Of a DNA stretch of 57,636 nt, positions 9,145 to 42,814 are shown in pieces. The position numbers and the translations under genes were made by a program. The notes under the pieces were generated by a model that made no database searches, was not told the DNA's origin, and saw nothing but the letters and a program-made list of their open reading frames with translations. The DNA lies in assembly GCA_003219695.1 (NCBI GenBank), contig QHQA01000039.1, positions 1 through 57,636 of the forward strand, read 5' to 3'. Origin of the DNA: Verrucomicrobiota bacterium. GTDB taxonomy: Bacteria; Verrucomicrobiota; Verrucomicrobiia; Chthoniobacterales; UBA10450. Numbering within the stretch: the stretch's first letter is position 1; every line of letters starts with the position of its first letter.

Positions 9145-10449
9145 ATGGCCATCGAAGTAAAAATTCCGTCGGTAGGCGAATCGGTGACCAGTGGGGTCGT
9201 CTCCGCTTGGCACAAAAAATCGGGTGAGTTTGTGGATGAAGGCGAAACGCTCTTCACGCTTGAGACCGACAAGGTTTCCACGGAGATCGTCGCCGAAAAA
9301 GCCGGCATTCTGGAAACGAAAGTGCCCGAAGGCCAGGAAGTGAAGATCGGCGAGGTGGTTGCAGTTATCGACGATTCGAAGCAGCGGCCGGAAGAAAAAA
9401 AGGCAGAGAAGCCTCCAGGAAAAAGGAAGGAACCCGAAGAAAAGAAGAAAGAGCCGGAGGGAAAGAAGAAAGAACCCGAGCCGGACAAAAAGGCCGCAGT
9501 TGTAGCCGCGGGCGTTGACCGCGGCAGGCCGGAGTCACCGCCTCCGGCGACAGCGCTTTCGCCCGCCGTCCGCCGAATCGTCGAAGAAGAGAAACTCGAG
9601 GCGGAGAAAATTTCCGGGACAGGCGTAGGCGGTCGCTTAACCAAAGCTGACGTGCTGGAAGCGGCGCAGGAACGCAAATCTGCAGGGAAAGCTGTTAGCT
9701 TCCCTAGGACGGCAGCGCCGTCCCCTACGGAAGTTGAAGCCTCCGCGGACGGCCGGTTCATTCGCAAGAAGATGTCGCCGTTGCGCCGCAAGATCGCGCA
9801 GCAACTGGTGATGGCGCAGCACACCGCGGCGATCCTCACCACATTCAACGAGTGCGATATGAGCGCCGTTCAGGAATTGCGCCGGAAGAAACAAGAAGAG
9901 TTCACGAAAAAGAACGGCGTCAAACTCGGACTAATGTCATTCTTTGTGAAAGCCTGCGTGGAAGCGCTTAAAGTCGTGCCCGTGGTCAATGGCCGCATCG
10001 AAGGCGACGATTTTATCCAAAACAATTTCTATGACATCGGCGTTGCCGTCGCGACCGAACGCGGGCTGGTTGTGCCGGTCGTGCGCGATGCCGGCAAGAA
10101 AAGTTTTGCCGATTTGGAACGCGACATCGCCGATTTCGCCGCTAAGGCGCGCGAAGGAAAATTGAAGCTTGAAGAGCTGCAAGGCGGCACATTCAGCATC
10201 ACAAATGGCGGAGTATTTGGATCGCTCTTCGCCACGCCGATCTTAAACCCGCCGCAGAGCGGCATTCTTGGCATGCACAAAATCATGCCGCGTCCCGTCG
10301 CCGTGGACGGCAAAGTGGAAGTCCGCCCGATGATGTATCTTGCGTTCAGCTATGATCATCGCGCAATCGACGGAAAAGAAGCCGTCACTTTTCTCATCAA
10401 GGTGAAGGAGTGCATCGAGGACCCGAAAAAGCTCCAACTGGATTTTTAA
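9145..10449 (+). CDS. sucB: Dihydrolipoamide succinyltransferase, E2 of 2-oxoglutarate dehydrogenase
   Basis: A 434-residue E2. The lipoyl domain is at residues 1-78 with the lipoylated Lys43 in '[10 protein letters not shown]'. A Lys/Glu/Pro linker follows, then a peripheral-subunit-binding domain near 133-170 ('[13 protein letters not shown]', '[12 protein letters not shown]'). The catalytic acyltransferase domain ends with His405 and Asp409 in '[13 protein letters not shown]'. The 'VGESV' start and the ending favour the succinyl over the acetyl enzyme. E3 (lpdA) lies 400 bp downstream; E1 is not in the window. Two palindromic repeats are embedded in the coding sequence, one on each side of the binding domain, both in linker regions. 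Confidence 0.9.
9501..9525 (+). repeat. Palindromic repeat (TGTAGCC hairpin family) inside sucB
   Basis: TGTAGCCGCGGGCGTTGACC-type unit with arms GCCGCGG/CCGCGGC, encoding V-A-A-G-V-D-R-G in the interdomain linker. It has the same core as copies in pxpB, yyaL, recQ and the GT39 gene. Confidence 0.75.
9681..9728 (+). repeat. Double-hairpin repeat inside sucB
   Basis: Outer TGCAGGG...CCCCTAC arms enclose two small hairpins (GGAAAGC...GCTTCC and GGACGGC-AGC-GCCGTCC). It encodes '[16 protein letters not shown]' in the second linker. It matches the recO copy at 19048-19099 in structure and in reading frame. Confidence 0.7.
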
Positions 10450-10460
10450 TTTCTCCACTT

Positions 10461-10491
10461 GTCATGTTGAGCGAAGCGAAACATCTCTGAT
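10461..10491 (+). repeat. Interspersed repeat GTCATGTTGAGCGAAGCGAA
   Basis: A direct repeat of the unit at 10799-10830. Together they bracket the GIY-YIG remnant. It is related to the GTCATTCCGAGCGAAG units elsewhere in the window. Confidence 0.7.
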
Positions 10492-10512
10492 TATTTCTGC
10501 TCAGGTGCGCAA

Positions 10513-10777
10513 TCACGACTACTGGGTTACATTCTCACGAACAAGCATTGCACCACGTTGTACATCGGCATCACGAACAACATAACGTAAACGACGCGAT
10601 CGCATGCGAGAAGAAACTGAAGGGCTGGCGCCGCAGTAGGAAAATTGCGCTTATCGAACAAACAAATCCGCGTTGGCTTGATCTCAGTGACGACTGGGAA
10701 CAGCAGCCAAAATTGTATGATCGGCCTTGGGAGACAGAAGAAATGATCCGAGATTCTTCGCTTCGCTCAGAATGACA
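10513..10777 (+). pseudogene. Remnant of a small GIY-YIG nuclease-domain gene
   Basis: The N-terminal piece reads DYWV-YILTNKHCTTLYIGIT, the GIY-YIG signature, after a one-base frame correction near 10530. It is joined to the family's C-terminal part 'EKKLKGWRRSRKIALIEQ', then 'NPRWLDLSDDWE'. The middle third is missing. The last residues and stop come from an inverted copy of the interspersed repeat at 10746-10777. This is a dead copy of a UPF0213-like gene, trapped between repeats, in the gap between sucB and lpdA. Confidence 0.7.
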
Positions 10778-10798
10778 CATGTTCGTTCCAGTAGCTTT

Positions 10799-10830
10799 GT
10801 CATGTTGAGCGTAGCGAAACATCTCAGATC
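10799..10830 (+). repeat. Interspersed repeat, second flank
   Basis: GTCATGTTGAGCGTAGCGAA..., near-identical to 10461-10491. It lies about 20 nt before the lpdA ATG and so forms part of its leader. Confidence 0.65.
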
Positions 10831-10851
10831 ATTGTTTGGCTCACAATAATC

Positions 10852-12258
10852 ATGGAAAAATTTGATGTCGTGATCATCGGCTCCGGGCCGGGCGGTTACA
10901 TTGCCGCCATCCGTGCTGGCCAACTCGGCCTGAAAACCGCGCTCGTTGAGAAAGACAAGGAGCTGGGCGGCACGTGTCTAAATGTCGGTTGCATCCCCAG
11001 CAAGGCGCTTCTCACTTCGAGCGATCATTTCATTTTCGTCAAAAAGGAAGCGGCCAAGCACGGCATCGTCATCGACGGCGCACGCGTTGATCTCGCCAAG
11101 ATGCAGGAGCGCAAGAACAAGGTTGTTAAGACGTTCAACAGCGGCGTCCGCTCGCTGATGAAAACGAACAAGGTCACGGTGATCGGGGGTCTGGGTACGA
11201 TTACTGCGCGTGGAAAAGTTTCGATTAAATCCTCCAACGGGGAGACGCAGGAGATCGAAACGAAAAATATTGTCATCGCCACTGGGAGCGCGCCGGTAGA
11301 ACTGCCATTTGCGAAATTTGACGGCAAAACAATTGTCAGCAGCACCGAAGCGCTGGAGTTCACCGAACCTCCGAAGAAACTCGTTGTAATCGGCGCCGGC
11401 GCGGTCGGCTTGGAACTCGGCTCGGTTTGGAACCGGCTCGGCGCGGAAGTAACGATGTTGGAATTTCTGCCGCGTATCGCGCTCGGGTTCGACCTTGAAC
11501 TGTCGAACCTGCTTCAGCGTTTGCTCACCGCACAGGGCATGACCTTCCATCTCGAAGCAAAAGTGACCGCGGTGAAGATCAACAATGGACTCGCGATCGT
11601 GACTGCGACCAAGGACGACCAGGAACTCAAATTCGAAGCAGACAAAGTTCTTGTGTCAGTTGGACGCCGCCCGTTCTCGAATGGGCTTGGCGCGGAAAAA
11701 GCTGGTGTTGAATTCGACGAAAAGAAGCGGATCAAGGTGGACAAACATTTCCGCACAAATGTGGAAGGCATTTACGCGATCGGCGACGTGATCGCCGGTC
11801 CAATGCTTGCGCACAAAGCTGAAGACGAAGGAATGGCGTGCATCGAAATCATCGCGGGCAAGGCCGGCCACGTAAACTACGACGCGATTGCCGGCATCAT
11901 TTACACGAATCCAGAACTCGCAGGCGTCGGCCTCACCGAAGAGCAAGCGAAAGAGAAAAAGATCGACGTGCATATCGGCAAATTCCCATTCCGCGCTAAC
12001 AGCCGCGCTCTTTGCAGTGATGACCTGGAAGGCATGGTCAAGTTTGTCGCTGACGCCAAAACCGATCGCATTCTCGGCGCACACATCCTGCACCACTTTG
12101 CTTCAGAGTTAATTGCCGAAGCCGTTTCAGTAATTGAATTCGGCGGCAGCTCCGAAGACGTCGGCCGCACTTGTCATTCCCACCCCACCTTGACCGAAGC
12201 TGTCAGGGAAGCCGCGCTCAACGTCGAGAAACGCGCGCTGCACATCATCAACCGCTGA
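10852..12258 (+). CDS. lpdA: Dihydrolipoamide dehydrogenase (E3)
   Basis: A 468-residue flavoprotein: FAD motif 'VVIIGSGPGGYIAAI' at the N-terminus, redox disulfide Cys42/Cys47 in 'GGTCLNVGCIPSKALL', NAD-binding 'VVIGAGAVGLELGSVW', and the second FAD motif 'GIYAIGDV'. The catalytic His444/Glu449 are in 'SHPTLTEAV'. It reoxidises dihydrolipoamide for the 2-oxoacid dehydrogenase complexes and works with the SucB encoded just upstream. A decayed copy of its last 60 codons lies at 16057-16243. Confidence 0.95.
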   Translation: MEKFDVVIIGSGPGGYIAAIRAGQLGLKTALVEKDKELGGTCLNVGCIPSKALLTSSDHFIFVKKEAAKHGIVIDGARVDLAKMQERKNKVVKTFNSGVRSLMKTNKVTVIGGLGTITARGKVSIKSSNGETQEIETKNIVIATGSAPVELPFAKFDGKTIVSSTEALEFTEPPKKLVVIGAGAVGLELGSVWNRLGAEVTMLEFLPRIALGFDLELSNLLQRLLTAQGMTFHLEAKVTAVKINNGLAIVTATKDDQELKFEADKVLVSVGRRPFSNGLGAEKAGVEFDEKKRIKVDKHFRTNVEGIYAIGDVIAGPMLAHKAEDEGMACIEIIAGKAGHVNYDAIAGIIYTNPELAGVGLTEEQAKEKKIDVHIGKFPFRANSRALCSDDLEGMVKFVADAKTDRILGAHILHHFASELIAEAVSVIEFGGSSEDVGRTCHSHPTLTEAVREAALNVEKRALHIINR

Positions 12259-12409
12259 TTGTCGTAGCGGCGTTTGTGTCAAACGCAGAATCCAGCTGCT
12301 TAGATGTAGTAACTCCAATAGCCGGGGAAACATTGCTGCTGGCTTGAAAGAGAAATTTCGCCTTGAATAATGCTGATGACCGACGGTTAAATCGGCGCGA
12401 TGATCTGCC

Positions 12410-12868
12410 ATGAGTAAGCCAAACAGAAAACTGACCTATCCAATTGGGTCAGTTTGGACGCTCGGCAAGCCAGCCCAAGCCGAGACCGGTCTCGGCAAAA
12501 TTGTTAAGATTGTTGGAAAGGCGGAAGATTTTCGCAGAGTAGTCGTAGTGGATTGCGAGCACCCCGAGAAAAAGGCCGAGGTCAGAATTAAGAATCTTGG
12601 CAACAAACTTGCGGAATGTGCCAAGGGTTTCGATCCCGGCAGTTACAAGCTTGCAGCAAACCGTGGGCGGATTACATCCAAAGCTCACGATCCCGCAGCG
12701 CACACCGTAAAACATTTATTTGTTGGCCGATTGCTGGAAGAAATTTCGTACGAGGGTAAGAAGGTACGCGTTTATCGCGACGGTGGTTTGGGACGCGAAA
12801 ACGTTTTGACGACTGAAGTTTTCCAGGCGTTGGATTTTATGCCGCGAACCTTGTTTTCGATGAAGTGA
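12410..12868 (+). CDS. Unrecognised 152-aa protein, partner of the downstream nuclease-like gene
   Basis: I do not recognise this family. The product is soluble and basic, with a beta-rich start 'KLTYPIGSVWTLGKP' and no signal peptide or membrane segment. Its last four bases overlap the ATG of the next gene (ATGA), so it is co-translated with a PD-(D/E)XK-like protein. Possible roles include DNA binding or regulating the nuclease, but nothing in the sequence settles this. Confidence 0.6.
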   Translation: MSKPNRKLTYPIGSVWTLGKPAQAETGLGKIVKIVGKAEDFRRVVVVDCEHPEKKAEVRIKNLGNKLAECAKGFDPGSYKLAANRGRITSKAHDPAAHTVKHLFVGRLLEEISYEGKKVRVYRDGGLGRENVLTTEVFQALDFMPRTLFSMK

Positions 12869-13422
12869 TTGGTTCTAGTCATGGAAGCACTCGTGGCTGT
12901 GCGTTATTGAAACAAGAAGCAGAAAGCGCAGAATTCTCTCTGCTACCTGGTACTCATAGCAATATCTCGGTCGAGGCCAAGAACGGCAGGAAAACTGTGC
13001 AGCCAGATTTAATTGTAAAGACGAAGAGTGTATATTGTGTTGTCGAGGCGAAAGGCCTGCGGCGGAGTTCATTTCAACATCGTCAGCTCGCCCGTGAGTT
13101 TCGTCTAGCGCACACAGCAGAAGATAAGATACCTCAGCAAACGCCACTACTTTTGTTGGTACTAACCAGGCCACCGCTGGTTCTCATTCAGGGCAAAGGA
13201 CGTCAATCACTGGAAACCGCTATTATGGCCGGACTGCGAGAGGAAATCTCGCCTGAAGAGATGTCAGGTTGGCAGGAAAAGATCCGTGAGACTGTGACCT
13301 GGATTACTTGGTCTGACATTGATCGGATTGTTCAACGAAATTTCAACGCCATGAACATAGCAGATCGTTCAGTGCAGGCCTCAATCAAGCGGCTGGTTCA
13401 GTCGATAAGCGAATTCCATTGA
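12865..13422 (+). CDS. PD-(D/E)XK nuclease-like protein, unknown system
   Basis: 185 residues with a restriction-endonuclease-like core. Asp is in 'KTVQPDLIVKTK' (about residue 50), followed by a beta strand carrying E-x-K in 'CVVEAKGLRRSS' (about 63-66). 'HRQLAREFRLAH' after it could supply the helix. The spacing D-x12-E-x-K suits the fold. The C-terminal half is helical and unassigned. It forms a two-gene unit with the upstream ORF. No methyltransferase or helicase is adjacent, so a classical restriction system is unlikely. A defence, repair or mobile-element role is possible. Confidence 0.55.
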   Translation: MIGSSHGSTRGCALLKQEAESAEFSLLPGTHSNISVEAKNGRKTVQPDLIVKTKSVYCVVEAKGLRRSSFQHRQLAREFRLAHTAEDKIPQQTPLLLLVLTRPPLVLIQGKGRQSLETAIMAGLREEISPEEMSGWQEKIRETVTWITWSDIDRIVQRNFNAMNIADRSVQASIKRLVQSISEFH

Positions 13423-13514
13423 TCGGCACGGCGGCACTCGGGGTAACAACAGGAACTGATCAACATCAGTTGGAAGTCAGCCGGAAATGATCACAGGTTA
13501 GAACAACTGCAGAA

Positions 13515-13709
13515 ATGTCAATATTGGTCGACGCGCTGGTAATTTCGCTAGTGCTTTACGCCTTTGGTGGCTGCCTTGCTTTGGTCGTGCTAGTCGTACG
13601 AGACGTCGTGTCAGCAATACATAGCGGTTACGCGCGAGGCCGCCAAATTCGGGAGGCGCGAAAAGCAGCGCGAAAGGCTCGCCGGATGGCGCGGACGCCG
13701 GTCGTCTAG
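13515..13709 (+). CDS. Small membrane protein with basic tail
   Basis: 64 residues: a hydrophobic helix spanning about residues 5-30 ('LVDALVISLVLYAFGGCLAL', then VVLVV), followed by an Arg/Lys/Ala-rich amphipathic tail (REARKAARKARRMAR). No family is recognised. It lies 92 nt after the nuclease-like gene on the same strand and might belong to that unit. Confidence 0.4.
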   Translation: MSILVDALVISLVLYAFGGCLALVVLVVRDVVSAIHSGYARGRQIREARKAARKARRMARTPVV

Positions 13710-13752
13710 TTTCAGCTGATTAAATTATTTGCTGTTCTCTCACTTAAGGCGC

Positions 13753-13938: not shown

Positions 13939-13941
13939 CCG

Positions 13942-13962
13942 TTCGTTAGGGGGCCTAACGAA
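13942..13962. repeat. Perfect palindrome at the fragment A boundary
   Basis: TTCGTTAGG-GGG-CCTAACGAA, 9-bp arms with a 3-nt loop. It sits exactly where homology to the MFS gene stops and may mark a recombination or insertion junction. Confidence 0.6.
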
Positions 13963-13988
13963 TGAGGCCTAACACGGCTCGCTGTTTA

Positions 13989-19869: not shown

Positions 19870-19961
19870 GTCATCCTGAGCGCAGCGCAGCCAAGTCGAA
19901 GGATCTCGCGGAATCACCATCGGTTGTGCTACGGGATTGCTCGACTTCGCTCGGAGTGACG
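19870..19961. repeat. Interspersed paired repeat before pxpBC
   Basis: GTCATCCTGAGCGCAGCG... and its inverted partner ...CTCGACTTCGCTCGGAGTGAC form an element of about 90 nt. It ends 6 nt before the pxpBC ATG, so it supplies the leader and leaves little room for a ribosome-binding site. Confidence 0.7.
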
Positions 19962-19966
19962 GAACG

Positions 19967-21778
19967 ATGGAAATCATTCCCCTCGGCGATTCCGCGCTGA
20001 TCGTGCGCTTGCGCGAACAATTTGAGCACGCGCCGGCGGAAACACTGAACGAGGTCCTCCGTGCATTTCAACAGCTTCGCAAGTCTGGAATTCCCGGTGT
20101 GATTGAACTCGCGCCAGCTTACACCAGCGTTGCAATGTTTTTTGATCCGATTGCGGTTGCCAAAGCGAGTGGAAGATCGGATGAAGCGTTTGATTGGCTG
20201 GCAACGCGCGTTCGCGCCGTTGTAGCCGGGGTCGGCGACCCCGGCAGACGCGTCAGAATTTCAAAACGCGATGTTCGCGTAGTCGAAATTCGAGTTTGTT
20301 ACGATTCGGAGTTCGCTCCGGATCTCGACGATGTTGCGGGTCATGCACAGCTCTCGACAAAAGAAGTTGTCGAGCTTCACAGCGCGGCTGAATATCGCGT
20401 GGCCTGCGTCGGGTTTGTTCCCGGTTTTCCATTTATGGCCGGATTGCCGAAAAAATTAGCGACGCCGCGCCGATCCACGCCGCGCAAGGAAATTCCTCCC
20501 GGTGCGGTGGGCATTGGTGGCGCGCAAACGGGAATTTATCCGCTGCGCTCGCCTGGCGGATGGAATCTGATCGGGCGCACACCTTTGAAACTTTTTGATC
20601 CGGCGAAAGATCCGCCCACGCTCTTGCGCGCTGGGGATCGCGTGCGTTTTCGCGCGATCACCCGGGAGGAATTTGACGCTGCGAGCACCAAGCCGTCATC
20701 CCGAGCGAACTCGAGGGATGCCGTTGCGGCACCCACAATTTTGCACCGGGATTCCTCGACTTCGGCCGGAATGACGGCGAATATTGTGCGCGCCGGTTTT
20801 CTTACCTCAGTGCAGGATCTTGGCCGTGCCAGTTTCCGTGAGTTTGGCGTTTCGACCAGTGGCGCGCTTGACCCGTTTGCGTTGCGCGTGGCAAATTTGC
20901 TCGTCGGCAATGATGAAGACGCGGCCGGACTCGAAATTACGCTGGGCGGTTTGCGATTGCGTTTTAATGACGAGCGAATCGTGGCCTGGTGCGGCGGCGA
21001 GTTTGATGTGCAGATTGGTTCGCGACCATTGCCGGGCGGGCATGTAGCGCGTTTGCAAACCGGTGACGAATTGAGATTCGGCCACTCCAAAATTGGTTGC
21101 CGATGCTGGCTGGCGATTTCCGGCGGAGTGGACGTGCCGGTTGTTCTTGGAAGCCGCTCCACGGATTTACGAGCGAACTTTGGCGGATTTGAGGGGCGCG
21201 CTTTGCGTGATGGGGATGTGGTTTCGCTTGGCAAATGGCCGGGGTCATCCGCCTTCGCTAAAGCTACGGCGGACAAGTCGACCCCGCCTACAGGAATTTC
21301 CTCGTGGACTGCGCCGCATGATTGGGTAGCGCCGGCAAAGCGCGAGCCTATCTCACGCATCGTGCGCGGCGTCGATTGGAACCGCTTCAACACGTTAACC
21401 GTTGAACGCCTAACGAGCGAAGCATTTACTGTTTCACCTGATTCAGATCGCATGGGCGTGCGTCTTGATGGCCCGGAGCTGAAGCGGACCGATAGCGCAG
21501 ACCTTATCTCTGAAGGGGTCGCGCCCGGCACGATCCAGGTCCCGCCGGGCGGAAAACCGATTTTGCTTTTGGGCGATTGCCAAACCATCGGTGGTTATCC
21601 CAAAATCGCTCACGTGATTACGGTTGATCTTGGCATTGCGGCGCAGCTTCGCGCCGGTGATCGCGTTCGGTTTTCCGAGATCTCGCTGGCCGATGCGCAT
21701 CGGCTCCTACTGGAACGCGAGCGTGAGCTTGAGCGTTTCCGCATCGGTCTTAGCCTCCAACGCTCATCTGACTCTTGA
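19967..21778 (+). CDS. Fused 5-oxoprolinase subunits PxpB-PxpC (KipI-KipA)
   Basis: About 603 residues from [15 protein letters not shown] (19967). The extra upstream codons derive from a repeat. The PxpB/KipI half (1-240) has '[12 protein letters not shown]' and '[20 protein letters not shown]'. The PxpC/KipA half (from about 272) has '[20 protein letters not shown]' and '[14 protein letters not shown]'. With PxpA (21911) it makes the ATP-dependent 5-oxoprolinase that converts pyroglutamate to glutamate. The linker (about 242-270) is encoded by an inserted 87-nt repeat, and two further repeats sit at residues 85-93 and 427-436. Confidence 0.88.
20221..20246 (+). repeat. TGTAGCC hairpin inside the pxpB part
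   Basis: GCCGGGGTC-GGC-GACCCCGGC, perfect 9-bp arms, encoding V-V-A-G-V-G-D-P-G. Confidence 0.8.
20692..20778 (+). repeat. Paired GTCATCCCGAGCGAAC repeat forming the PxpB-PxpC linker
   Basis: The left half GTCATCCCGAGCGAACTCGA and right half TCGACTTCGGCCGGAATGAC are imperfect inverted copies of the interspersed repeat. The element is 87 nt (29 codons) and keeps the frame. Confidence 0.75.
21248..21273 (+). repeat. TCCGCCTTCGCTAAAGCTAC repeat inside the pxpC part
   Basis: An imperfect palindrome TCCGCC...GGCGGA encoding A-F-A-K-A-T-A-D-K. It lies between the outer GGCCGGGGTC and GACCCCGCC arms. A related unit is seen at 36909-36930. Confidence 0.65.
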
Positions 21779-25812: not shown

Positions 25813-25888
25813 TGTAGCCGGGGGCGTTGACCTCGGCTAGCGACGAAACGATGCCACGAACCCGCCGGGGTCGTCGCCCCCGGCTACA
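25813..25888. repeat. Paired TGTAGCC repeat supplying the recQ 3' end
   Basis: TGTAGCCGGGGGCG ... CGCCCCCGGCTACA, perfect outer arms with an internal unit. On the minus strand it encodes the last residues of RecQ (A-V-A-G-G-D-D-P-G-G-F...) and contains its stop codon. Confidence 0.8.
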
Positions 25889-28038
25889 GCGTCGCGCGCC
25901 GCAAATGCGCGAAAGATCCGCAGCAACCCAATATCGTATCTGTTGCCAAGGAACGCGCTGACATCCACAAGCTTTCCATTGTTGATTTGTCGAAATGCCG
26001 ACTCGATTTCCTCCCTTTGCGAAGCCATGAAGAACCGATCGGCCTCGAGGGATTCGCCCGATTCAATCGCGGCTGCCAGATGCTCGTAAATCGTGCTTCG
26101 CACGAATCCGCGCGCGCGAGAAATATCTTCGACTGATTCACCGCCGCGAAAGCGCCGGAGCGTTTCTTTCTGGCTGTCATTCAAGCGCGACCGGCGTCGC
26201 GAAAGCAGCGGATCGACATTGCGTGAAAATGTCTGGCGCGGATTGGCGGCGAGATAATTTTTGACCTCACTGAGAAACGGCTCGACAAAATCTTTTGCCT
26301 TTTGTTCGCCCACACCGGGAATTCGGCGAAACTCGTTCGCGTTCATCGGATAGTTTCTCGCCATTTCGCGAAGCGACACGTCGGAAAAGATAATGTAAGC
26401 CGGCACGCCGCGTTCGTCGGCGAGCTTGCGACGCAGGCCGCGCAAGCGCTCGAACAGCGGTTCGTCGCATTCGATCGCGCCAGCGCGAGTTTTTTGATCG
26501 CGCGCGGCGATGTCGATTTGTTTTGTCAGCGTAATCGGCGTCCGCTGGCGCAAGGCTTCGTGCCCGGCTTTGGTGATCGTGAGCGTTGCGAACCTCCCGG
26601 GCGCGCATTCGATGAGCCCCAGCCGCAGCAACTCGCGTCCGATCGCCTGCCACGCTTCACGTTTCAAATCCCGGCCAATGCCGTAAGTGGACAGCTCGTC
26701 ATGACCTCGCTGCCGGATCGCCTCGGTGTCTGCGCCACGCAGAACATCAACAACATGATTCAAGCCGAACCCGAATCCGCTTTTCGTGTGCACTCGATAA
26801 ACGCAGGAAAGAAACTTTTGCGCGTGCACGGTTCCGTCGAACGTTTCGCGCGGCTGCAAGCAGTTATCGCAACCGTCACAGCGCTGTTCTCCAAATTTTT
26901 CGCCGAAGTACTCCAACAGCACGGCGCGCCGGCATTGGCGGGTCTCAGCGTAGTGCACCATCTGCCGGAGTTGTTCGCGGGCGATGCGCGCTTCGGTTTC
27001 GCTCTTTTCGTCAATGAAATGGAGTTGCTTGGCGACGTCGCTTGCGCTGAAAAGCAGCACGCATTCGCTGGGCAAGCCGTCGCGTCCGGCACGGCCGGTT
27101 TCCTGGTAATAACTCTCCAGATTTTTCGGCAGATCGTAATGCACGACGAAGCGGACGTTCGGTTTGTTGATGCCCATGCCGAACGCGATCGTGGCCGTGA
27201 TCACGCGCACGTCGTCGCGCAGAAACGCTTCCTGATGTTTCGTGCGCTCGGTGGGCGTGAGGCCCGCGTGATACGGCTTCGCGCTCACGCCGTCTTCATT
27301 GAGATTTCGCGCCAACGATTCTGTGCTTTTTCTGCTGGCGCAATAGACGATGCCGCTGTCATGAGGCCGGCTCAGGATGAAGGCGAGCAGTTGTTCGTAG
27401 GGCGCCGATTTCGGAACGACTCGATACGACAGATTCGGCCGGTTAAAGCTAGCGACGTAACAGCGCGGTTCGCGCAGTTTCAGTTCCTTGATGATGTCAG
27501 CCCGCACCCGTTCGGTGGCCGTCGCCGTGAGCGCTATCATCGGCACGTCGGGAAGGTACGTCCGCAATTTTTTCAGCTCACGATACTCCGGACGGAAATC
27601 GTGGCCCCATTCGCTGATACAATGCGCTTCGTCGATTGCGAACTGGGCAATGTTCCAGTTGAGCGCGCGCTCCAGAAATGTATCGAGCATGAGCCGCTCC
27701 GGCGCGACGTACAGCATCCGGTATTCGCCGCGATGCAAGCCGCGCCAGCGCGCCTTTGCTTGGTCGCGATCCAGTGTGGAATTTAAGTACGTCGCCGGGA
27801 TCCCGCTCGTTTGCAGCGCATCCACCTGATCTTTCATCAGCGAGATGAGCGGCGATACCACGATGGTCAGCCCATTGCGCAACAACGCCGGCAGCTGAAA
27901 GCAAAGCGATTTTCCACCGCCCGTAGGCATCAGCACAAATACATCGCGCCCGGCGAGCGCATCCCGGATGATTTCCTGCTGCAACGGCCGGAATTGGTCG
28001 TAGCCGAAATGTCTTTTCAGCGTGCCTAGCAACTTCAT
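25837..28038 (-). CDS. recQ: ATP-dependent DNA helicase RecQ
   Basis: 733 residues: Walker A 'LMPTGGGKSLCFQLPAL' with Lys43, DEAH box 'AIDEAHCISEWGHDFRPEYR', helicase motif VI 'YYQETGRAGRDGLPSECVL', RQC zinc ligands in 'CRRAVLLEYFGE' and 'CDGCDNC', a winged helix, and an HRDC domain near 525-600 ('DVSLREMARNYPMNANEFRR'). It unwinds DNA 3' to 5' in recombination and repair. Its last 17 residues and stop come from a palindromic repeat, so the native end may have been replaced. Confidence 0.95.
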   Translation of the reverse strand: MKLLGTLKRHFGYDQFRPLQQEIIRDALAGRDVFVLMPTGGGKSLCFQLPALLRNGLTIVVSPLISLMKDQVDALQTSGIPATYLNSTLDRDQAKARWRGLHRGEYRMLYVAPERLMLDTFLERALNWNIAQFAIDEAHCISEWGHDFRPEYRELKKLRTYLPDVPMIALTATATERVRADIIKELKLREPRCYVASFNRPNLSYRVVPKSAPYEQLLAFILSRPHDSGIVYCASRKSTESLARNLNEDGVSAKPYHAGLTPTERTKHQEAFLRDDVRVITATIAFGMGINKPNVRFVVHYDLPKNLESYYQETGRAGRDGLPSECVLLFSASDVAKQLHFIDEKSETEARIAREQLRQMVHYAETRQCRRAVLLEYFGEKFGEQRCDGCDNCLQPRETFDGTVHAQKFLSCVYRVHTKSGFGFGLNHVVDVLRGADTEAIRQRGHDELSTYGIGRDLKREAWQAIGRELLRLGLIECAPGRFATLTITKAGHEALRQRTPITLTKQIDIAARDQKTRAGAIECDEPLFERLRGLRRKLADERGVPAYIIFSDVSLREMARNYPMNANEFRRIPGVGEQKAKDFVEPFLSEVKNYLAANPRQTFSRNVDPLLSRRRSRLNDSQKETLRRFRGGESVEDISRARGFVRSTIYEHLAAAIESGESLEADRFFMASQREEIESAFRQINNGKLVDVSAFLGNRYDIGLLRIFRAFAARDAVAGGDDPGGFVASFRR

Positions 28039-28328: not shown

Positions 28329-30599
28329 TCAAAACTTTAGTATGTCGCCAAGAGCCGTCGCGTCGGTGATCGGCGCTTTGCAAGTGAAATTTTCGCAAAC
28401 GTATGCGGCTGCCTTGCCGTCCACCGGCGACATCGCGCGGATGGCTTCGTTTGTTTCGCCGAGAAACTTCTGGCCTTCACCACCATCAGCCAGAAGGAGG
28501 ATTGTCTTTGGCAGAAAATGGCGGGGCACTTCTTTGAGCAGCGCTTTCGTTTCCGCTGCGTCCGGTCTCCCAGCGATCACAATTTGTCGCGGTTTGCTCA
28601 ACGAGTAATCGAGCGCCACCAACATTTGCGGCATGGCGCTGGGGAAATGGGAAAGCGTGGCCGCAAATGCATCGATCGTCTTTCTTGCGCACTCGGCTCC
28701 GGCGGCTGCCGGATCATCGAGAATTTGCGATAAGCGTAAGAGATTCAGCGCTGCGACCGAGCTCGCGGCCGGCTCCGCGCCGTCATTGTCGTCTTTCATC
28801 CGGAGAAAAACACTCTGATCCTTGCCACTGGTGCTGAAGTAGCCGCCGTTCTTCTCGTCGAAAAACAGACGGTCCTGCGTCTGCTGCAATTCGGTCGCAA
28901 GCTTTAGCCACTCCACATCGAATGATGCTTCGTAGAGATCGAGGAGCCCCTGGATCACCAAGGCGTAATCGTCAGCGAACCCTTCGATATCACTGCGGCC
29001 GTGGCGATAGTTGCGATACAAAATCTTGCGCGACGAGTCGTACAAGTTTGTCCGCAGAAAATTCGCGGCGCGTGTTGCAATTTCCAGGTAGCGCGGAGCA
29101 TCGAGCACTTGCGCGGCGCGCGCGTAGGCGGAGATCATCAGGCCGTTCCAGGCGGCGATGATCTTGTCGTCTAGATGCGGGGGCGGGCGCCCGGCGCGAA
29201 TGGCAAACAATTTCTCGCGACTCTGCGCAAGCGATTCTGCAGTTTGCTCTTCGGTCTTCTTAAAATGTTCTGCTGTCTTTGCGATCGTATGGCGTTCAAT
29301 CAAAATATTTTTGCCGCGGAATTCATCATGCGGATCGCTTCCTTCCGGCGCGTTGCCGTGAGCTTGCACGCCGTAGTGAAAATCGAAAATCTCAGCGGCA
29401 TCGCCAAGCGCTTCGTCGATTTCTTTTTTGCTCCAGACGTAGAACGCGCCTTCGGCGGTCTTCTCGTGACCGGGATCACCGATCCCGGCTACAACTGGGC
29501 TGTCGGCGTCTTCGGCGGAGAAGAAGCCGCCTTCCTTTGAAGTCATGTCGCGGGCGACATAATCGAGAATGTCATGCGCGACTGCCTCATATTGCTGGTG
29601 GCGGGTGATTTGAAATGCGTCGAGATAAGCGACAGCGAGTTGCGCCTGATCGTAAAGCATCTTTTCGAAGTGCGGCACGTGCCAGTAACGATCGACTGAG
29701 TAACGATGGAAGCCGCCGCCGACATGATCGTGCATGCCGCCTGCCGCCATTTTGCGAAGCGTGAATAGCGTCATTTCGAGCGCTTGTGAAGATAGCGCAT
29801 GTGTCCCGCTTGCTTTGTCTGTGGAAGGCAAGCCGGAGGCATGCCCTACATTACGCGCGTAGAACCGTGTGAGGAAATTGAGCGCGACCGGTCGCGGAAA
29901 TTTTGGCGCGTTACCGAATCCGCCTTCTTTCGGGTCGTAGCTGCGATCAAGCTGCTTGTAAGCGGCCTCCAAGATCCCAGCGTCGATTTTGCCTTCAGCG
30001 GTTCCCGATTGAGATTCCCGCAGAGCCTGAACTATCTTGCCGCCTTGCTCAACAATCTGGTCATGTTTCTCTTTCCAGGCAGTCGCGATTCTTTCGAGCA
30101 CCTTCTTGAACCCGGGCTGACCATATCGGTCTTCTGGCGGAAAATAAGTTCCGCCGACAAACGGTTTCAGATCGGGCATCAACCAGACGCTCATTGGCCA
30201 GCCGCCCCCGCCGGTGGTTGCCTGGACAAACGTCATGTAAATCCGGTCAACATCGGGGCGTTCTTCCCGGTCCACCTTAATGTTCACGAATTGCCGGTTC
30301 ATGATCGCGGCCACTTCTTCGTTCTCAAACGATTCGTGCGCCATGACATGGCACCAGTGACAGGTGGAATAGCCAACTGAGAGAAAGATCGGTTTGTTCT
30401 CCCGACGCGCTTTGGCAAACGCTTCCTCGCGCCACGGATACCAATCGACCGGATTATGCGCGTGCTGGAGAAGGTAAGGCGATTTCTCGTGCGCCAGTCG
30501 ATTCGTGTGCTCGGCGCGAGCAGGCGCGTTCTCAGCAGAAGTGGTCGATGTCACCAACCACGTTAGCGCGAGAAATCCAAACCGGAAATGGCTTCTCAT
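28329..30599 (-). CDS. YyaL-like DUF255 thioredoxin-domain protein, exported
   Basis: 756 residues. A signal peptide ([20 protein letters not shown]) precedes the DUF255 thioredoxin-like domain: '[20 protein letters not shown]', redox-like Cys80/Cys83 in '[16 protein letters not shown]', '[16 protein letters not shown]'. An alpha/alpha-barrel domain follows ('[20 protein letters not shown]', '[16 protein letters not shown]'). The family is widespread, with unclear chemistry. Two repeats are embedded in frame, near residues 250-267 and 369-377, at loops where homologues are normally shorter. Confidence 0.88.
29470..29493 (-). repeat. TGTAGCC hairpin inside the yyaL-like gene
   Basis: CCGGGATC-ACC-GATCCCGG plus CTACA, read on the minus strand as V-V-A-G-I-G-D-P-G between 'EDADSP' and 'HEKTAEG'. 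Confidence 0.8.
29797..29850 (-). repeat. GCATGTGTCCCGCTTGC repeat inside the yyaL-like gene
   Basis: An imperfect palindrome with outer GCATG/CATGC, encoding [16 protein letters not shown] on the minus strand. Confidence 0.6.
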
Positions 30600-37086: not shown

Positions 37087-38509
37087 GTGAAAGCGCATCT
37101 TAATCAAGGCGCGTTTAACCTGCTTTTGTTAATGGCTTTATGCACGATGCCATTTGCACTCGGACAGCGAACCAGCGGCAGGGGCACTCCCGGCAACATC
37201 ATCACAGTCACCAACACAAGCGACAGCCGTCCCGACTTATTGCGTCAGGCCCTGGCGGATGTGAACGATGGTGACATGATTGAGTTCGCAGGACTGGCAC
37301 GATCGGATTAACGAGCGGTGAACTGTTGGTGGACAACAGCATCACAATCTCAGGACCGACCGCTAACAACCTTGCAGTTAATGGCAACGCTAAGATTACT
37401 GTGTTCCACATCGGTTCTGGTGAAACCGTGACCATTTCTGGCCTGAGCATCACTAACGGTTATACCACCGGGTTTGGCGGCGGCATCCATAACGACCATG
37501 CATCGCTGACACTCAACAATTGCACCGTTACCGCCAATAACGGGTCGGGCTTTCAAGGTGGCGGTATCTACAATGATGCGGAAAACTCGAGTGGCGCACT
37601 GCTGGAGATAAACAACTCCTCAGTTACGGACAACTCCGGGGGGAAGGCATTTATAACGATGCACTCGGCGGCGGCGTTGCGACGCTGAACATAACCGACA
37701 GCAGTCTGAACAACAATTCCGGCGGTGCTATTTCCAGCCGCGGCTGGCTCTGCACATTTTGCGGACACGGCACGGCAACAGTTCAAATAACCGACAGCTC
37801 GATTACTGGCAATGGCAGCACACCATTTGGCGGCGCGATCTATAGCGACACTGGAGCGTGCTGCCCCGTGACGGTATCACTCGCTAACAGCACTGTCAGC
37901 GCAAATGCTGGGGCCGCGGTGTATAACTTTGTCCTATCGACTACAGCAGTAAGTAACAGTACCATCAGCAACAACTCAGGCGGCGGTATTTACAGCGATC
38001 CCGGAGTCGCAGCAAGTGGATCATACATTGATAATACCACCATGAGCGATAACTACGTGGAGATTTGGAACACGGGTTTCAATGGCACATATATCAAGAA
38101 CACCATCTTCAACGTGAGCCCTGGAGGACACAGCATCGTGACTAACTACAACGCGGTCACGTCAAACGGCTACAACGTTAGCAGCGATGATAGCGGCGGT
38201 TATTTGAACGGCTCGGGCGATCAAATCAATACCGATCCGCTGCTTGGTCCTTTGCAGGATAATGGCGGACCTACATTCACACACGCGTTGTTACCCGGTA
38301 GCCCAGCCATTGATGCAGGCGATCCAAACTTCGCTCCTCCGCCTTACTACGATCAGCGTGGGCCAGGCTTTGATCGCGTCCGAGGCAGTCGGATCGACGT
38401 GGGCTCATATGAAGTGCAGGCAACCTCAACGCCAACACCTACACCAACTCCGACGCCAAGGCCTACACGGATTCCGCGGCCTCGCCCTACCCCAGCCCCG
38501 CGCCCGTAA
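37087..38509 (+). CDS. Secreted right-handed beta-helix protein (choice-of-anchor Q), two frameshifts
   Basis: Three frames join into one product of about 474 residues. Frame one has a signal peptide ([20 protein letters not shown]) and '[20 protein letters not shown]'. Frame two has beta-helix rungs such as '[19 protein letters not shown]'. Frame three has more rungs, then the choice-of-anchor Q end '[20 protein letters not shown]', 'IDAGDP', and a Thr-Pro repeat tail. The breaks lie at about 37290 and in a G6 run near 37637; each is repaired by one added base. It is probably a cell-surface adhesin-like protein. Confidence 0.78.
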
Positions 38510-38636
38510 GTTTTGTAATAGCGTCCGCCTCCGGCCCCGCAACTCAAATGGAGGGCGAGCTCGGCGAGCTTCGGGCTTTATGCGAGCGTTCATGGACATT
38601 CGTTAGGCCTCGCAGAGCTCCGCTCTCCAGTGCAGG

Positions 38637-39713
38637 TCATTTGCCGCTATCCAGCGCGCGGCTGATGCGACCGAGTCCTTCGGCAAACATTTCGGTATTC
38701 ACGCCCATACCGATGCGAAAGTGATTGGGCATTTCGAAAAAACGACCCGGCACGGCGGAAGTATCGAACTCCGATCGCAGGCGCTCCAGAAAAGCTTCCG
38801 CGTTTCCGTGTACGAATCGCAGGAATGCGGTGGTGCCCCGCTTCGTCGGTACCGCACACACCCCGCCCTGTTGCGCGAGGGAATCGCGAAGCAGTTCGCG
38901 ATCTGCTTCCAGAATCCGGCGCGCTCTTTCACGGAGCAGATCGAGATGCTGAAATGCCGCGAGGCTGAGCAGTTCGCCGGGATAAACTGCTGTGGCGCTG
39001 TAAAGATCATTCAGGCGGCGCATCTTCCACGCGAGATCAGGCTGCGCCAAAATCCATCCGCATCGAAGGCCGCTGACGCCGTAAACTTTCGTTAAACTGC
39101 TGGTCACCACGAACTCCGGTCCGAGATGGAATGACGTGCGCGGTGTGTTCTCGTAAACCGCATCGAGATAAACTTCATCGACCAGCACGAGCGCGCCGAT
39201 GCTGAGCGCGATATTGTCGATTTCGCTCAGCACTGATTCGGGCGTCAGAACACTCGTCGGATTGTGGAGGTTCGTGATCACGATGAGCCGCGTGTTTGGC
39301 GTGATGCAGCGGCGGACCTCCGCTGGATCAATCGCCCAGCCGTTTTCTTCAGCGCGCCGAAAGCGCTTTACGTTCGCTTCCAGGTAATGCGCGACATCGA
39401 GAATGGGACCATAGGCCGGATGCTCGATTAAAACTTCGTCGCCCGGCTCGATGATCGCTGCCATGGCCAGATGATTCGCCATGGACGTGCCCGCGGCTTC
39501 CACAACGCATTCGGGATCAACTCCACAATGCGCGGCGATGGCTTTCTGCAAGGGCGCATAGCCGTAGCTGTTGTCGCCATTGATTTCGAGCTCGTCCAGG
39601 TTGGCCGGCAGTTCGCGAAGAGAAACTGGCGCAACGCCGCTCGTAGCCAGATTGAACCGCGCGCTGCTTTGGGTCTTGGCCCAGTGCATGTAGTCGGAAT
39701 GTTTGTGCCTCAT
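38637..39713 (-). CDS. Class I/II PLP aminotransferase
   Basis: 358 residues from MRHKHSDYMHWAKTQ (39713), whose ATG overlaps the stop of the upstream permease (ATGA). The fold-type I features are 'VVEAAGTSMANHLAMAAIIE', 'VITNLHNPTSVLTPE', 'LVDEVYLDAVY' (Asp and Tyr contacting PLP) and the Schiff-base Lys in 'TSSLTKVYGVSGLRCGW'. Coupling to an amino acid permease suggests amino acid catabolism or an amino-acid-derived product. Confidence 0.88.
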   Translation of the reverse strand: MRHKHSDYMHWAKTQSSARFNLATSGVAPVSLRELPANLDELEINGDNSYGYAPLQKAIAAHCGVDPECVVEAAGTSMANHLAMAAIIEPGDEVLIEHPAYGPILDVAHYLEANVKRFRRAEENGWAIDPAEVRRCITPNTRLIVITNLHNPTSVLTPESVLSEIDNIALSIGALVLVDEVYLDAVYENTPRTSFHLGPEFVVTSSLTKVYGVSGLRCGWILAQPDLAWKMRRLNDLYSATAVYPGELLSLAAFQHLDLLRERARRILEADRELLRDSLAQQGGVCAVPTKRGTTAFLRFVHGNAEAFLERLRSEFDTSAVPGRFFEMPNHFRIGMGVNTEMFAEGLGRISRALDSGK

Positions 39714-41047
39714 GAATTCTCTCGTCTGAATCTCCTCCAACACCAGTAAACCGGCACTCCACTGAGCATGATGCACAGGGCGATCGCACTGTTCGCGGGC
39801 GCGGTAACAATGGCGCTGCCCAAAATTCCGACACACGACAAAACAAAAAGCAGCGTTGTGAACGGATGGCCGGGAACGCGGTAAACGCAGGCGTCTGAAC
39901 CGATCTGACGCCGGCGCAAAATGAAGAGGGATACCGCGGTCATTCCAAAAAAAATGGAATCAACGGTCATCTCGAAATTGAGAATCTCGCCATAGGTTCC
40001 CGAACAAGCGATCACAAGTGCTGCGACACCCTGAAGGATGATCGCCACGACCGGCGCGCCTGAGCGTTGCGATAGTTTGCCGACGCTCTTAAGAAGAAGC
40101 CTGTCGTGCGCCATTGCGTAATACACGCGCGGCGCGGTGAGCATGCTTTGGCTCAGGAATCCGAGAGTGGAAACTGCAATGGCGAAAGCAATCCAACGCG
40201 CGCCGCGCTCGCCCAATGCGATCCGCATCACGTCCGATGCGGGCGTTGTCGTCGCGTCGAGACCAGTCGGGCCGAGCACAAACAAGCACGCAAGATTCAC
40301 TGCAAGATAGAGCGCGACAACCCCCGCCACGCCGATCAGCAGTCCGCGGGACAAATCGCGCCGCGCGTCGCGCATTTCGCCCGCAACAAAAGTGGCGGTC
40401 TGCCATCCGCCATAGGCAAAAGCAACGGGAACCATTGCCGCCCCGATGCTCTTCAAAAGATCAAATGAAACCGGTTGTCCAAGCACGGTTTCCGATTTGA
40501 ATCCCGCAGCCGCGGAATGGCCAACCGCAAATCCAATCAGTACGAGCGCGCTGATCGCGCCAATCTTCAACAACATGAGAGCGCTCTGCACGTTGCTACC
40601 GGCGCGCGCTCCCAAACAGTTAATGCCAGTCAGCGCGAGCAGCACGGCGGCTGCGGTTGCGCTCTCGTTCCACGCTGCGCCCGTGAGCGCGCGAAAGTAT
40701 GACGCGAAAATGACCGCGACCGCAGCCATGCCGCCGGTCTGCGTGACCAGGAGCAGTCCCCATCCGTACACAAATGCAATCGCAGGATGATACGCTTCGC
40801 GGAGATAGACATACTGCCCGCCCGCAGCGGCGGGCAAACGCGTGGCCAGCTCGGCCCAGATGAAGGCGCCGCACATCGCCAGCAACCCGCCCAGCACCCA
40901 CACGCCAAGGATCAGGAACGGCGTGTGGACATGGTGCGCTACTGCTGAAGGATTCGCGAAAATTCCCGCGCCCACGATGCCGCCCATGACAAGCATCACG
41001 GCATCGAAGAATCCAAGCTGACGGCGCGGCTTAATCACTGTTGTCAT
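39710..41047 (-). CDS. APC-family amino acid permease
   Basis: 445 residues with about twelve TM helices. 'VMLVMGGIVGAGIFANPSAV' in TM1 is the APC amino acid-binding loop, and 'RLPAAAGGQYVYLREAYHPA' follows. It resembles the permease at 23215 in layout but is clearly separate. It is translationally coupled to the downstream aminotransferase, so its substrate is probably that enzyme's amino acid. Confidence 0.88.
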   Translation of the reverse strand: MTTVIKPRRQLGFFDAVMLVMGGIVGAGIFANPSAVAHHVHTPFLILGVWVLGGLLAMCGAFIWAELATRLPAAAGGQYVYLREAYHPAIAFVYGWGLLLVTQTGGMAAVAVIFASYFRALTGAAWNESATAAAVLLALTGINCLGARAGSNVQSALMLLKIGAISALVLIGFAVGHSAAAGFKSETVLGQPVSFDLLKSIGAAMVPVAFAYGGWQTATFVAGEMRDARRDLSRGLLIGVAGVVALYLAVNLACLFVLGPTGLDATTTPASDVMRIALGERGARWIAFAIAVSTLGFLSQSMLTAPRVYYAMAHDRLLLKSVGKLSQRSGAPVVAIILQGVAALVIACSGTYGEILNFEMTVDSIFFGMTAVSLFILRRRQIGSDACVYRVPGHPFTTLLFVLSCVGILGSAIVTAPANSAIALCIMLSGVPVYWCWRRFRRENS

Positions 41048-41136
41048 TCCGAGCCCTTCGACTTCGTTCAGGGTAAACTACGTCGAGGAATCCCTGAATC
41101 CTGCCTTGTCATTCCGAGCGAAGTCGAGGAATCTCT
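41042..41136. repeat. Interspersed GTCATTCCGAGC repeats, two units
   Basis: TTGTCATTCCGAGCCCTTCG... and CTTGTCATTCCGAGCGAAGT... lie in tandem at and upstream of the permease start. The first overlaps the ATG, so the 5' end of the gene is repeat-derived. Confidence 0.7.
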
Positions 41137-41182
41137 CGATTTCTCTCGCGGTTTACAGCAGAGGACCAAACGCAATGCGTTT

Positions 41183-42814
41183 TCACTTTGTGACCGAGAC
41201 CAACTTGTAAATTCTAAATTCAGGCGTTGCTTCCACCAGCGTCGCGACTTTCGCCACGTGATCGGCAAATTCTGGATAAGAATCGAGCCACCAAAAAGTA
41301 TTGCTGGTGAAAACTAGATGCGTCGCGCCGCAGCGACGCAGTCGTTCCAGATCGGCAATTGCCTGCTGACTGTCGCTGGGATTGCCGTTGTAGATTGCGT
41401 CGCTTTCGAGAAAGTGCCAGCCCTTGCGCTGCGCGTAATAAAACATCGTTGGATCGCCAGCGTCGGCGGCGACGATCAATGCGCCGGGCGCGGTAATCTT
41501 GTTTAGTTCCAAGCCGGCATCGCGCAGTTGAGCGGCTGATGGTTCGTAAAGTGGCCGCACATAAACGAAAGCCAGGATTAGAAACGAACTTGCGAGGATG
41601 ATCGACAACGTCATCACCGCAATGCGCGAAGGGATTTTCGATCCAAAGAAAGCGCAAGCGGCGCCGGCGAATGCAGCGGCAATTGGTACCAGCGGAAGTT
41701 GATACCATGGGTGGCGATTGCCGTAACCGGCTACGACAATAAACACAACCATCGCAGCGAGCCACCAATGGAAAAGACGGTTGGCCTTGTCGCGTGGCGC
41801 GACGAACAAACCGATCACCGCCATGATTGAAAGAATCGGCGTCAGGCCCGAAGTTGCGGTGCGCCAGGCGATCTCCGAATACCACGAAAAATTTTCAATC
41901 CGAATCCCGCCGGCGCCGAAGAAATGGTGCGGATAAAATTTCTCCGCGATTTGATAGGCGTGCCAGTACCAGATGGCAGATGGCAGCAATGTGATGGCGG
42001 CGAAGAGAAGCAGTTGTAGCCGGGATCGGTGATCCCGGCTCCTCACAGGTTTGATTGTGTTTCGGTCGGAATCACCGATCCCGGCCGCAACTAAATACAA
42101 AAGCGGCGCGGCGATCACGATGCTCGTGATTTTGATTAAGAGGGATAGGGAAATCGCAATCGCTGCCATCAGTAAGGGCGTCCACTTTTGGTCGCGAGTC
42201 CAGCGAAGGAAAAAATATAAGCCGATAATCGAAAGGCTAAGCGATGGCGCGTCCGGCATGAACGAACGGCCGGTAAAAATGTTTAACGGCGCAAAGCTGA
42301 AAAAAAATGTGGTCCAAACAGCTGCGGTAGTGCCGAAGGTTTCTCGCACGAGCAAAAAGAAAAACGGCAGCGAAACCGCAAAGAAAATCACGGCCTGGCT
42401 GCGTCCGATCCATTCATGGACGCCACCAAATTTGTAGCAGATCGCAGCAAGAAAGGGCAAAATGGGAAATTCGGTTCCAACGTAGCCGGTGGCATCGCCG
42501 GCCCAATCGACCTGCGGATAAGCAAACCGAAATCCGTTCTTCAAAAAATTTTGTGCAATCGCCGCAACGTCGCTTTGCCGCCAACTCCAGTGATCGATAT
42601 ACGGCTGAACGATCAAGATGAGTCGCACCCCCACGGCTAAAATCCATAAAACGATTGCAAGCGTGGTTGCTGCACGTGTAGCCGTCGCCCTGTGGGCGAC
42701 GCGGCGCACCCGTGCTAAAGATGTCAGGCCCTCGCTTCCCGCAGGAAAGCGGCTACAGCAGACGCGCTCTGGTCTGCGCATCCTGCAGCCTCTTGACAGC
42801 GGAGTTAAAGTCAA
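41183..42814 (-). CDS. GT39/ArnT-like integral membrane glycosyltransferase
   Basis: 543 residues with about eleven TM segments. The first periplasmic loop has 'DHWSWRQSDVAAIAQNFLKN', the acidic/Arg pattern of PMT/ArnT-type GT-C enzymes that use polyprenyl-phosphate sugars. 'GRSFMPDAPSLSLSIIGLYF' and 'YGNRHPWYQLPLVPIAAAF' are further family-like loops. The N-terminal 50 residues before TM1 are mostly encoded by a repeat (42677-42757). A second repeat (42014-42091) adds about 26 residues in a loop between TM helices. No Met lies between the first repeat and TM1, so the repeat must be translated. Confidence 0.78.
   Translation of the reverse strand: MTLTPLSRGCRMRRPERVCCSRFPAGSEGLTSLARVRRVAHRATATRAATTLAIVLWILAVGVRLILIVQPYIDHWSWRQSDVAAIAQNFLKNGFRFAYPQVDWAGDATGYVGTEFPILPFLAAICYKFGGVHEWIGRSQAVIFFAVSLPFFFLLVRETFGTTAAVWTTFFFSFAPLNIFTGRSFMPDAPSLSLSIIGLYFFLRWTRDQKWTPLLMAAIAISLSLLIKITSIVIAAPLLYLVAAGIGDSDRNTIKPVRSRDHRSRLQLLLFAAITLLPSAIWYWHAYQIAEKFYPHHFFGAGGIRIENFSWYSEIAWRTATSGLTPILSIMAVIGLFVAPRDKANRLFHWWLAAMVVFIVVAGYGNRHPWYQLPLVPIAAAFAGAACAFFGSKIPSRIAVMTLSIILASSFLILAFVYVRPLYEPSAAQLRDAGLELNKITAPGALIVAADAGDPTMFYYAQRKGWHFLESDAIYNGNPSDSQQAIADLERLRRCGATHLVFTSNTFWWLDSYPEFADHVAKVATLVEATPEFRIYKLVSVTK
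42014..42091 (-). repeat. Paired TGTAGCC repeat inside the GT39-like gene
   Basis: TTGTAGCCGGGATCGGTGAT ... ATCACCGATCCCGGCCGCAA, near-perfect outer arms. The first half is read as V-A-A-G-I-G-D-S-D and the second as R-D-H-R-S-R-L-Q. Confidence 0.8.
42677..42757 (-). repeat. Paired TGTAGCCG repeat encoding the GT39-like N-terminus
   Basis: TGTAGCCG...CGGCTACA outer arms and GTCGCCC-TGT-GGGCGAC inside. It is read in a different frame (C-S-R-F-P-A-G-S...) from the other embedded copies. Confidence 0.75.

Follow-up and report, generated by a model that had tools for sequence, protein, structure and literature searches.

GTAG-tagged palindromic repeats carried in frame by protein-coding genes in a genus of Verrucomicrobiota

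How does one short palindrome come to lie in the same reading frame of five unrelated proteins? The question is raised by a 57,636-nucleotide stretch of a Verrucomicrobiota genome (contig QHQA01000039.1, assembly GCA_003219695.1; hereafter the window), in which the hairpin TGTAGCCGGGRTCGGTGAYCCCGGC recurs in sucB, in a fused pxpB-pxpC open reading frame (ORF), at the end of recQ, in a yyaL-like gene and in a GT39-like gene. The hairpin is a GTAG-tagged repetitive extragenic palindrome (REP), frequently present as an inverted doublet. Very probably, this REP is spread by a REP-associated tyrosine transposase (RAYT), enters genes and is retained where it is in frame and tolerated, the sites persisting while their hairpins change. 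This kind of mobile hairpin is already known, but its state here is unusual: most of the copies examined are genic, and at least one gene slot shows a change of hairpin family between species.

Pattern scanning of the window (up to three mismatches) gave nine matches, where 0.38 are expected on average and none of 100 shuffled sequences reached nine; a second pattern gave 11 matches against 0.07 expected. Each of the five sites holds the hairpin, and at three of them (sucB, recQ end and GT39) it forms an inverted doublet. The host genes and the copies within them are as follows.

9145 to 10449, plus strand: host gene sucB, with lipoyl, E3-binding and 2-oxoacid dehydrogenase domains (Pfam)
9501 to 9525, plus strand: REP copy in sucB, sense, reading V-A-A-G-V-D-R-G
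9528 to 9552, minus strand: inverted partner REP in sucB, in the antisense frame P-E-S-P-P-P-A-T, with GTAG changed to GTCG
19937 to 21778, plus strand: host ORF pxpB-pxpC, with CT_C_D and CT_A_B domains
20221 to 20245, plus strand: single REP in the pxpB part, sense, reading V-A-G-V-G-D-P-G
25837 to 28038, minus strand: host gene recQ (Pfam)
25813 to 25837, plus strand: outer REP of the recQ-end doublet, from the pattern scan
25864 to 25888, minus strand: REP in the recQ C-terminal tail behind the last Pfam domain, sense, reading V-A-G-G-D-D-P-G
28329 to 30599, minus strand: host gene, yyaL-like (Thioredox_DsbH; Pfam)
29469 to 29493, minus strand: single REP in the yyaL-like gene, sense, reading V-A-G-I-G-D-P-G
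41183 to 42814, minus strand: host ORF, GT39-like (PMT_2; Pfam), whose true start may lie further in
42015 to 42039, plus strand: REP in the GT39-like gene, antisense to it, in the Arg-rich frame R-D-H-R-S-R-L
42066 to 42090, minus strand: degenerate inverted partner in the GT39-like gene, sense, reading V-A-A-G-I-G-D-S-D, GTAG lost, matched core 42066 to 42084

The five places and their peptides were named in a first-pass annotation of the letters alone, and the pattern scans bear them out. Three of its positions (25888, 29493 and 42091) are right-hand ends rather than starts, and it missed the second arms in sucB, GT39 and recQ. The sucB insert sits between the lipoyl and E3-binding domains. 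At the recQ doublet (25813-25888), the TAG stop of the gene straddles the edge of the outer REP, as PMC3733652 has for other GTAG REPs.

The anatomy of the element was taken from 120 copies in the same genome. This census covers the stretches around matches among those listed (262,240 bases of 3.14 Mb); it is incomplete and omits a few sites, for example C200:18140, C56:53223 and C92:36786. Copies were kept at up to two mismatches with at least six stem pairs, or at three mismatches with at least seven, and overlaps were removed; 79, 31, 7 and 3 copies have 0, 1, 2 and 3 mismatches. The unit spans 25 nucleotides and consists of T-GTAG, an 8-bp stem (CCGGGATC or variants with paired changes), a three-base loop G-N-Y and a closing GATCCCGG. 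GTAG is unchanged in 110 of the 120 copies (the search pattern itself includes GTAG, with up to three mismatches permitted), and 118 copies have G as the first base of the loop. Stem pairs 9:21, 10:20 and 11:19 covary, in coding copies too, and a mean of 7.0 of the eight pairs counted are Watson-Crick in genes and 7.2 elsewhere, copies with fewer than six having been dropped; a G.A mismatch lies within the stem of 52/120 copies. Doublets make up 40 of 80 insert units, all 40 in '+-' order with GTAG outwards, that is, head-to-head. Because of the GTAG at the hairpin foot, the short stem and small loop, the many head-to-head copies and a RAYT gene flanked by the repeat, the element fits a GTAG-tagged REP, occurring singly or as a head-to-head doublet (REP doublet forming a hairpin, REPIN). 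A likeness to the Rickettsia palindromic elements (RPEs), proposed at first pass, stands for the outcome, palindromes carried in frame, and fails for the class: neither a CGTC tag, as in the class of RPE-4 and RPE-6, nor a unit of about 150 bp was found, and the element has instead a GTAG tag, a 25-nucleotide unit and RAYT linkage.

Over the whole genome (3.14 Mb in 224 contigs) there are 68 matches at up to two mismatches and none for the backwards-pattern control; a looser scan gave 192 matches against 25 in the control. All 15 other genomes sampled from the genus carry the element, as does one of eight relatives from the order, with two matches, and four of 113 genomes in a sample of the class match at up to one mismatch, the window genome counted in. 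A second hairpin family, TGTAGCGGCGGTCTATGACCGCCG, has 34 matches in the window genome and 12 to 40 in each of all seven genomes searched (up to three mismatches, control 0). Y1-transposase matches in the window genome number 14, of which 12 exceed the family cut-off. One RAYT-like gene, C106, is flanked by inverted REP copies, and searching with its protein gave relatives in 33 of 35 genomes, the window genome being one of the 35. Thirty RAYT loci were fetched: a REP lies within 230 bases at all ten best-scoring loci (53-100% identical, own locus included), and none lies within 600 bases at the other 20 (29-55% identical). The pairing of REP and RAYT is as known from other bacteria in what PMC3733652 and PMC8266576 describe, and this linkage suggests that a RAYT of the genus transposes the element.

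Are copies inside genes the rule or the exception? A codon model called a copy intragenic when the surrounding ORF had 120 codons or more and coding signal flanked the copy on either side; this rule replaced an earlier coding test on 150-base flanks, which was too weak (12/120 in frame, 43 coding on one side, 65 intergenic or unclear). Intragenic copies number 74 of 120 (62%), compared with 1018 of 1400 random positions (73%; Fisher p 0.015), and include 48, 18, 6 and 2 of the copies with 0, 1, 2 and 3 mismatches. They are distributed over 49 ORFs. With L048:1414-2172 left out, 48 were submitted to Pfam and 45 gave a family (E<=1e-5); L017, L077 and L085 gave none. Read from these families, the hosts include IleRS-type and alanyl-tRNA synthetases, GcvP, UvrA, UvrB, a UvrD-type helicase, DnaE, DnaX, ribonucleotide reductase, ThiC, PurL, Rho, YchF, MnmA and HutH, and repair and replication genes recur among them, as in PMC3733652. 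Five hosts chosen for comparison with their best solved chain (GcvP, HutH, ThiC, YchF and, in two places, MnmA) have extra residues at the REP that the aligned homologue lacks, in agreement with the initial idea of tolerated insertions. The mnmA gene (L065:1073-2359, a 429-codon ORF) bears two separate in-frame doublets. Single intragenic copies are 12 sense and 13 antisense. Two genomes of other genera were also counted. In G131 (a single contig of 5,957,605 bases, sampled in the surroundings of 35 of 43 places), 17 of 62 copies are in genes (27%) against 607 of 743 random positions (82%; p 2e-18), and in G051, from another genus in the family, 12 of 15 copies are genic against 130 of 153 (p 0.71). 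The usual REP trait of lying mostly between genes is thus seen in G131 and not in the window genome.

The reading frame was assessed with a flank-only test that ignores the element itself, for which 80 insert units were built and 79 scored. Strand and frame are kept in all 32 units with both flanks confidently coding, as they are at 954 of 991 random uninterrupted positions, and such flanks are as frequent around the units (32/79) as at random (991/2436; p 1.0). Sense copies lie in the frame GTA-GCC in 27 of 28 cases, and random frame use, which would have spoken against insertion, is not seen. Of the 120 copies, 99 have a stop in one of the remaining sense frames, 111 in the other and one in the frame used; because of these stops, the sense frame rule is largely stop avoidance. 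The single frame, first taken as a sign of selection, is thereby mostly explained. The first-pass annotation had described one frame with a stop and others giving Arg-rich peptides; sense stops and an Arg-rich antisense frame do exist, but two sense frames have stops in most copies, and all three antisense frames are open (stops in 0, 1 and 0 copies). Its claim of one shared frame holds for the five named sense copies and not for the partner arms in sucB and GT39, which are in antisense frames. Antisense copies of the window genome (n=38) use the three frames 18, 15 and 5 times, the rarest being the Arg-rich one (p 0.026); pooled over three genomes, this frame accounts for 6 of 54 (p 0.002), although the arms of one doublet are not independent. 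In the other genera, all intragenic sense copies are again in GTA-GCC (8/8 in G131, 5/5 in G051), counts that are weaker than the flank-only test as the classifier requires an open frame. Doublet spacers are divisible by three in 15 of 24 coding and 3 of 15 non-coding doublets (p 0.02), leaving out the mixed doublet L085, of which one arm is intragenic.

What do the same sites look like in relatives? Across 35 genomes of the genus, among them the window genome itself, orthologues of sucB, yyaL, GT39 and the pxpB piece (recQ was left out) were looked for and matched in 28, 28, 22 and 30. Some orthologues of each of the four genes are without the insert, again as expected of tolerated in-frame insertions. 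Trees were built without the site columns and with partial-gene rows dropped, and few of their branches are well supported. The yyaL site is filled in 18 of 23 tree rows and empty in five, the GT39 site filled in 15 of 20 and empty in five, and filled and empty switch once on each tree; in two of the filled rows, L159 and L168, the hairpin has no intact GTAG. The hairpin type, assigned by eye and with stem variants of one family counted as types, needs at least eight changes on each tree against shuffled means of 11.9 (yyaL) and 11.8 (GT39), and six on the GT39 tree with stem variants merged, one of them the filled/empty change. Further afield, where the same residues in orthologues would have spoken against insertion, the insert is missing from all 80 of the best-matching distant homologues of YyaL, and the position is a loop of varying length in many. 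Since the net gain over empty orthologues is merely +5 residues in yyaL and about +4 in pxpB, these two are remodelled loops and not clean insertions.

A true exchange of hairpin families is seen for GT39 only. The sister sequences L156 and L169 are 99.0% identical over 300 bases upstream of the site and 92.7% over 300 bases downstream, and one has a GGGATC-family doublet where the other has a doublet of the GCGGTC-TAT family, which is the second family named above (81 vs 126 bases at the site). The replaced stretch starts at GTAGC and extends about 55 bases beyond the insert: the 54 bases behind the L169 insert are 69% identical to L156, and the next 90 bases 98%. This difference fits short-tract recombination from another lineage, and an exchange worked purely by the RAYT, which was also considered, is weakened by the 54-base divergent patch. 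The variation at yyaL consists of stem variants and nested repeats, and in some orthologues, three of yyaL and two of sucB, the palindrome CTTGTCCGCCGTAGCCTYGGCGAAGGCGGA is nested in frame within the REP. In the window, CTTGTCCGCCGTAGCCTYGGCGAAGGCGGA also occurs at 21248-21277 (minus strand), in the pxpC part of the pxpB-pxpC ORF, and it has 16 genome matches at up to three mismatches. Apparent inverted doublets of other GTAG hairpins with a TGT loop (such as TGTAGCCGCCGCCCTGTGGGCGGCG) lie at 42677-42758 and 43419-43494, at and beyond the start of the GT39 ORF. A dispersed repeat, GTCATTCCGAGCGAAGTCGAGGAATCTC, is found at 20692, 30631, 41105, 44222 and 44352, with inverted relatives near 10460 and 19935.

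We propose that the RAYT of the genus, an HUH tyrosine transposase of the TnpAREP type, most likely spreads the REP as single-stranded hairpins, which would enter genic and intergenic DNA alike. Selection would remove insertions that cause a frameshift or introduce a stop codon, and would leave those that add complete codons to a loop, linker or tail able to accommodate them. In the sense orientation mostly only GTA-GCC is stop-free, and sense copies would therefore be read as V-A-G-x-x-D-P-G or near variants. The inserts are probably translated and presumably neutral for the host protein. Filled sites would persist across many species while their hairpin decays or another palindrome invades; in one gene studied, the hairpin appears to have been swapped for another REP family, once with an apparent short recombination tract. 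A more far-reaching version is tentative and rather doubtful, namely that accepted sites are permanent slots whose hairpin again and again gives way, in frame, to other REP families or takes up nested palindromes, either because the RAYT cuts at the GTAG ends that the hairpins share or through short-tract recombination. If it were true, swapped cassettes of mobile DNA, and not point mutations, would be what diversifies protein loops.

Could the insert instead be kept for what it encodes, either as a Gly/Pro turn-forming loop or as a functional hairpin in the mRNA, the single frame reflecting that advantage? The single filled/empty switch on each tree, the under-used Arg-rich antisense frame and the covarying stem pairs of coding copies are all what such selection would leave. 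Stops alone explain most of the sense frame rule, though, the peptides at one site differ widely and include nested repeats, the hosts are of many kinds despite the frequency of repair and replication genes, and covariation is expected if the copies stem from several hairpin variants; we regard this explanation as unlikely. The same single switch in occupancy would also follow from one ancestral insertion per site whose hairpin later changed by point mutation with no exchange of families, and the yyaL variants, nested repeats aside, are indeed stem variants of one family. That account is improbable given the unlike families in the nearly identical sisters L156 and L169, the many copies of the second family in each of the seven genomes and the six changes that the GT39 tree still needs. 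As for ordinary conserved residues or chance GC-rich palindromes, the yyaL position being a length-variable loop in many homologues is in their favour, and they are refuted by the shuffles, the empty genome control and the distant YyaL homologues that lack the residues, leaving them a negligible chance.

Several observations weigh against spread by a RAYT with retention in tolerant places. No clean empty site was found between very close relatives, the yyaL and pxpB loops being remodelled. The RAYT-like gene of the window genome is short (a 144-codon open frame, 93 aa from ATG), its Pfam E is 3.1e-5 and a 130-aa piece gave nothing at 1e-5, so that this copy may have decayed; a further locus, L314, which is outside the ten linked ones and 55% identical over a short piece, is without the element. 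Genic copies are somewhat scarcer than genic random positions, the codon model behind the coding calls was trained on these very loci, and just 32 of the 79 scored units have two confidently coding flanks. The recQ copy is classed as unclear, not intragenic, and one sense copy, C70:11468, lies in a TGA-bearing frame, perhaps because its gene is truncated or was miscalled. A point in favour of retention in tolerant places comes from the yyaL product as modelled by AlphaFold (mean pLDDT, the predicted local distance difference test, 87.4; 32 sequences). Residues 348-355, nearly the REP peptide, score below 50 between strands 343-345 and 358-360, although this low value may partly reflect a shallow alignment there; the insert is predicted as a loop of low confidence that connects two strands, which is what a tolerated site would show.

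REPs are named for their extragenic location, and here they are genic nearly as often as random positions. Housekeeping hosts such as DnaE, UvrA, UvrB, AlaRS, ThiC and MnmA let the absorption of mobile DNA by proteins be measured, and related genomes with filled, empty and refilled sites allow REP movement and new protein loops to be compared directly. Two points look new: copies are merely mildly depleted from genes (62% against 73% of random positions, and 27% against 82% in G131), and the GT39 site holds, from one species to another, hairpins of different families that take each other's place in frame. Neither the frame rule nor hairpin exchange at one site was found in the main-text parts of PMC3733652 (supplementary lists aside), and in the literature by title and abstract, mostly outside subscription papers, nothing on REPs of this genus, or on an exchange of hairpins at orthologous sites in coding DNA, was found beyond that paper.

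Intragenic GTAG REPs as such are already known in this phylum. The initial statement that no description existed for it was mistaken, as Di Nocera et al. (2013; PMC3733652) list intragenic units in their Table 1, with the verrucomicrobium Opitutus terrae the richest. Their GTAG REPs share with ours the GTAG at the hairpin foot, head-to-head dimers, RAYT genes flanked by repeats, copies in repair, replication and tRNA-modifying genes, and REP ends that often give TAG stops. They differ in being mostly intergenic, compared with 74/120 genic copies here (1018/1400 at random). REPINs (2011; PMC3116915) are likewise inverted doublets that form the mobile unit and are linked to RAYTs; of the 1,067 occurrences in P. 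fluorescens SBW25 of the commonest 16-mers from three groups, only 14 overlap genes, whereas most copies examined here are genic. The group 3 TnpAREP elements, for example of Stenotrophomonas (PMC8266576), resemble ours in their 23-nucleotide REP with an 8-bp palindrome, 3-nucleotide loop and GTAG, and in the high-scoring loop base G13, the counterpart here being the first loop base (G in 118/120). Their REPs are described as perfect palindromes, whereas 52/120 of our copies have the G.A stem mismatch. Finally, RPEs (PMC10969869, PMC3733652) are also palindromes fused in frame into unrelated proteins; they are described as about 150 bp long, in ten families and with no RAYT named (PMC10969869), and the intragenic repeats of R. 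conorii are equated with RPE-4 and RPE-6 of the CGTC class, apparently without a dedicated transposase (PMC3733652), whereas the unit described here has 25 nucleotides and is linked to a RAYT.

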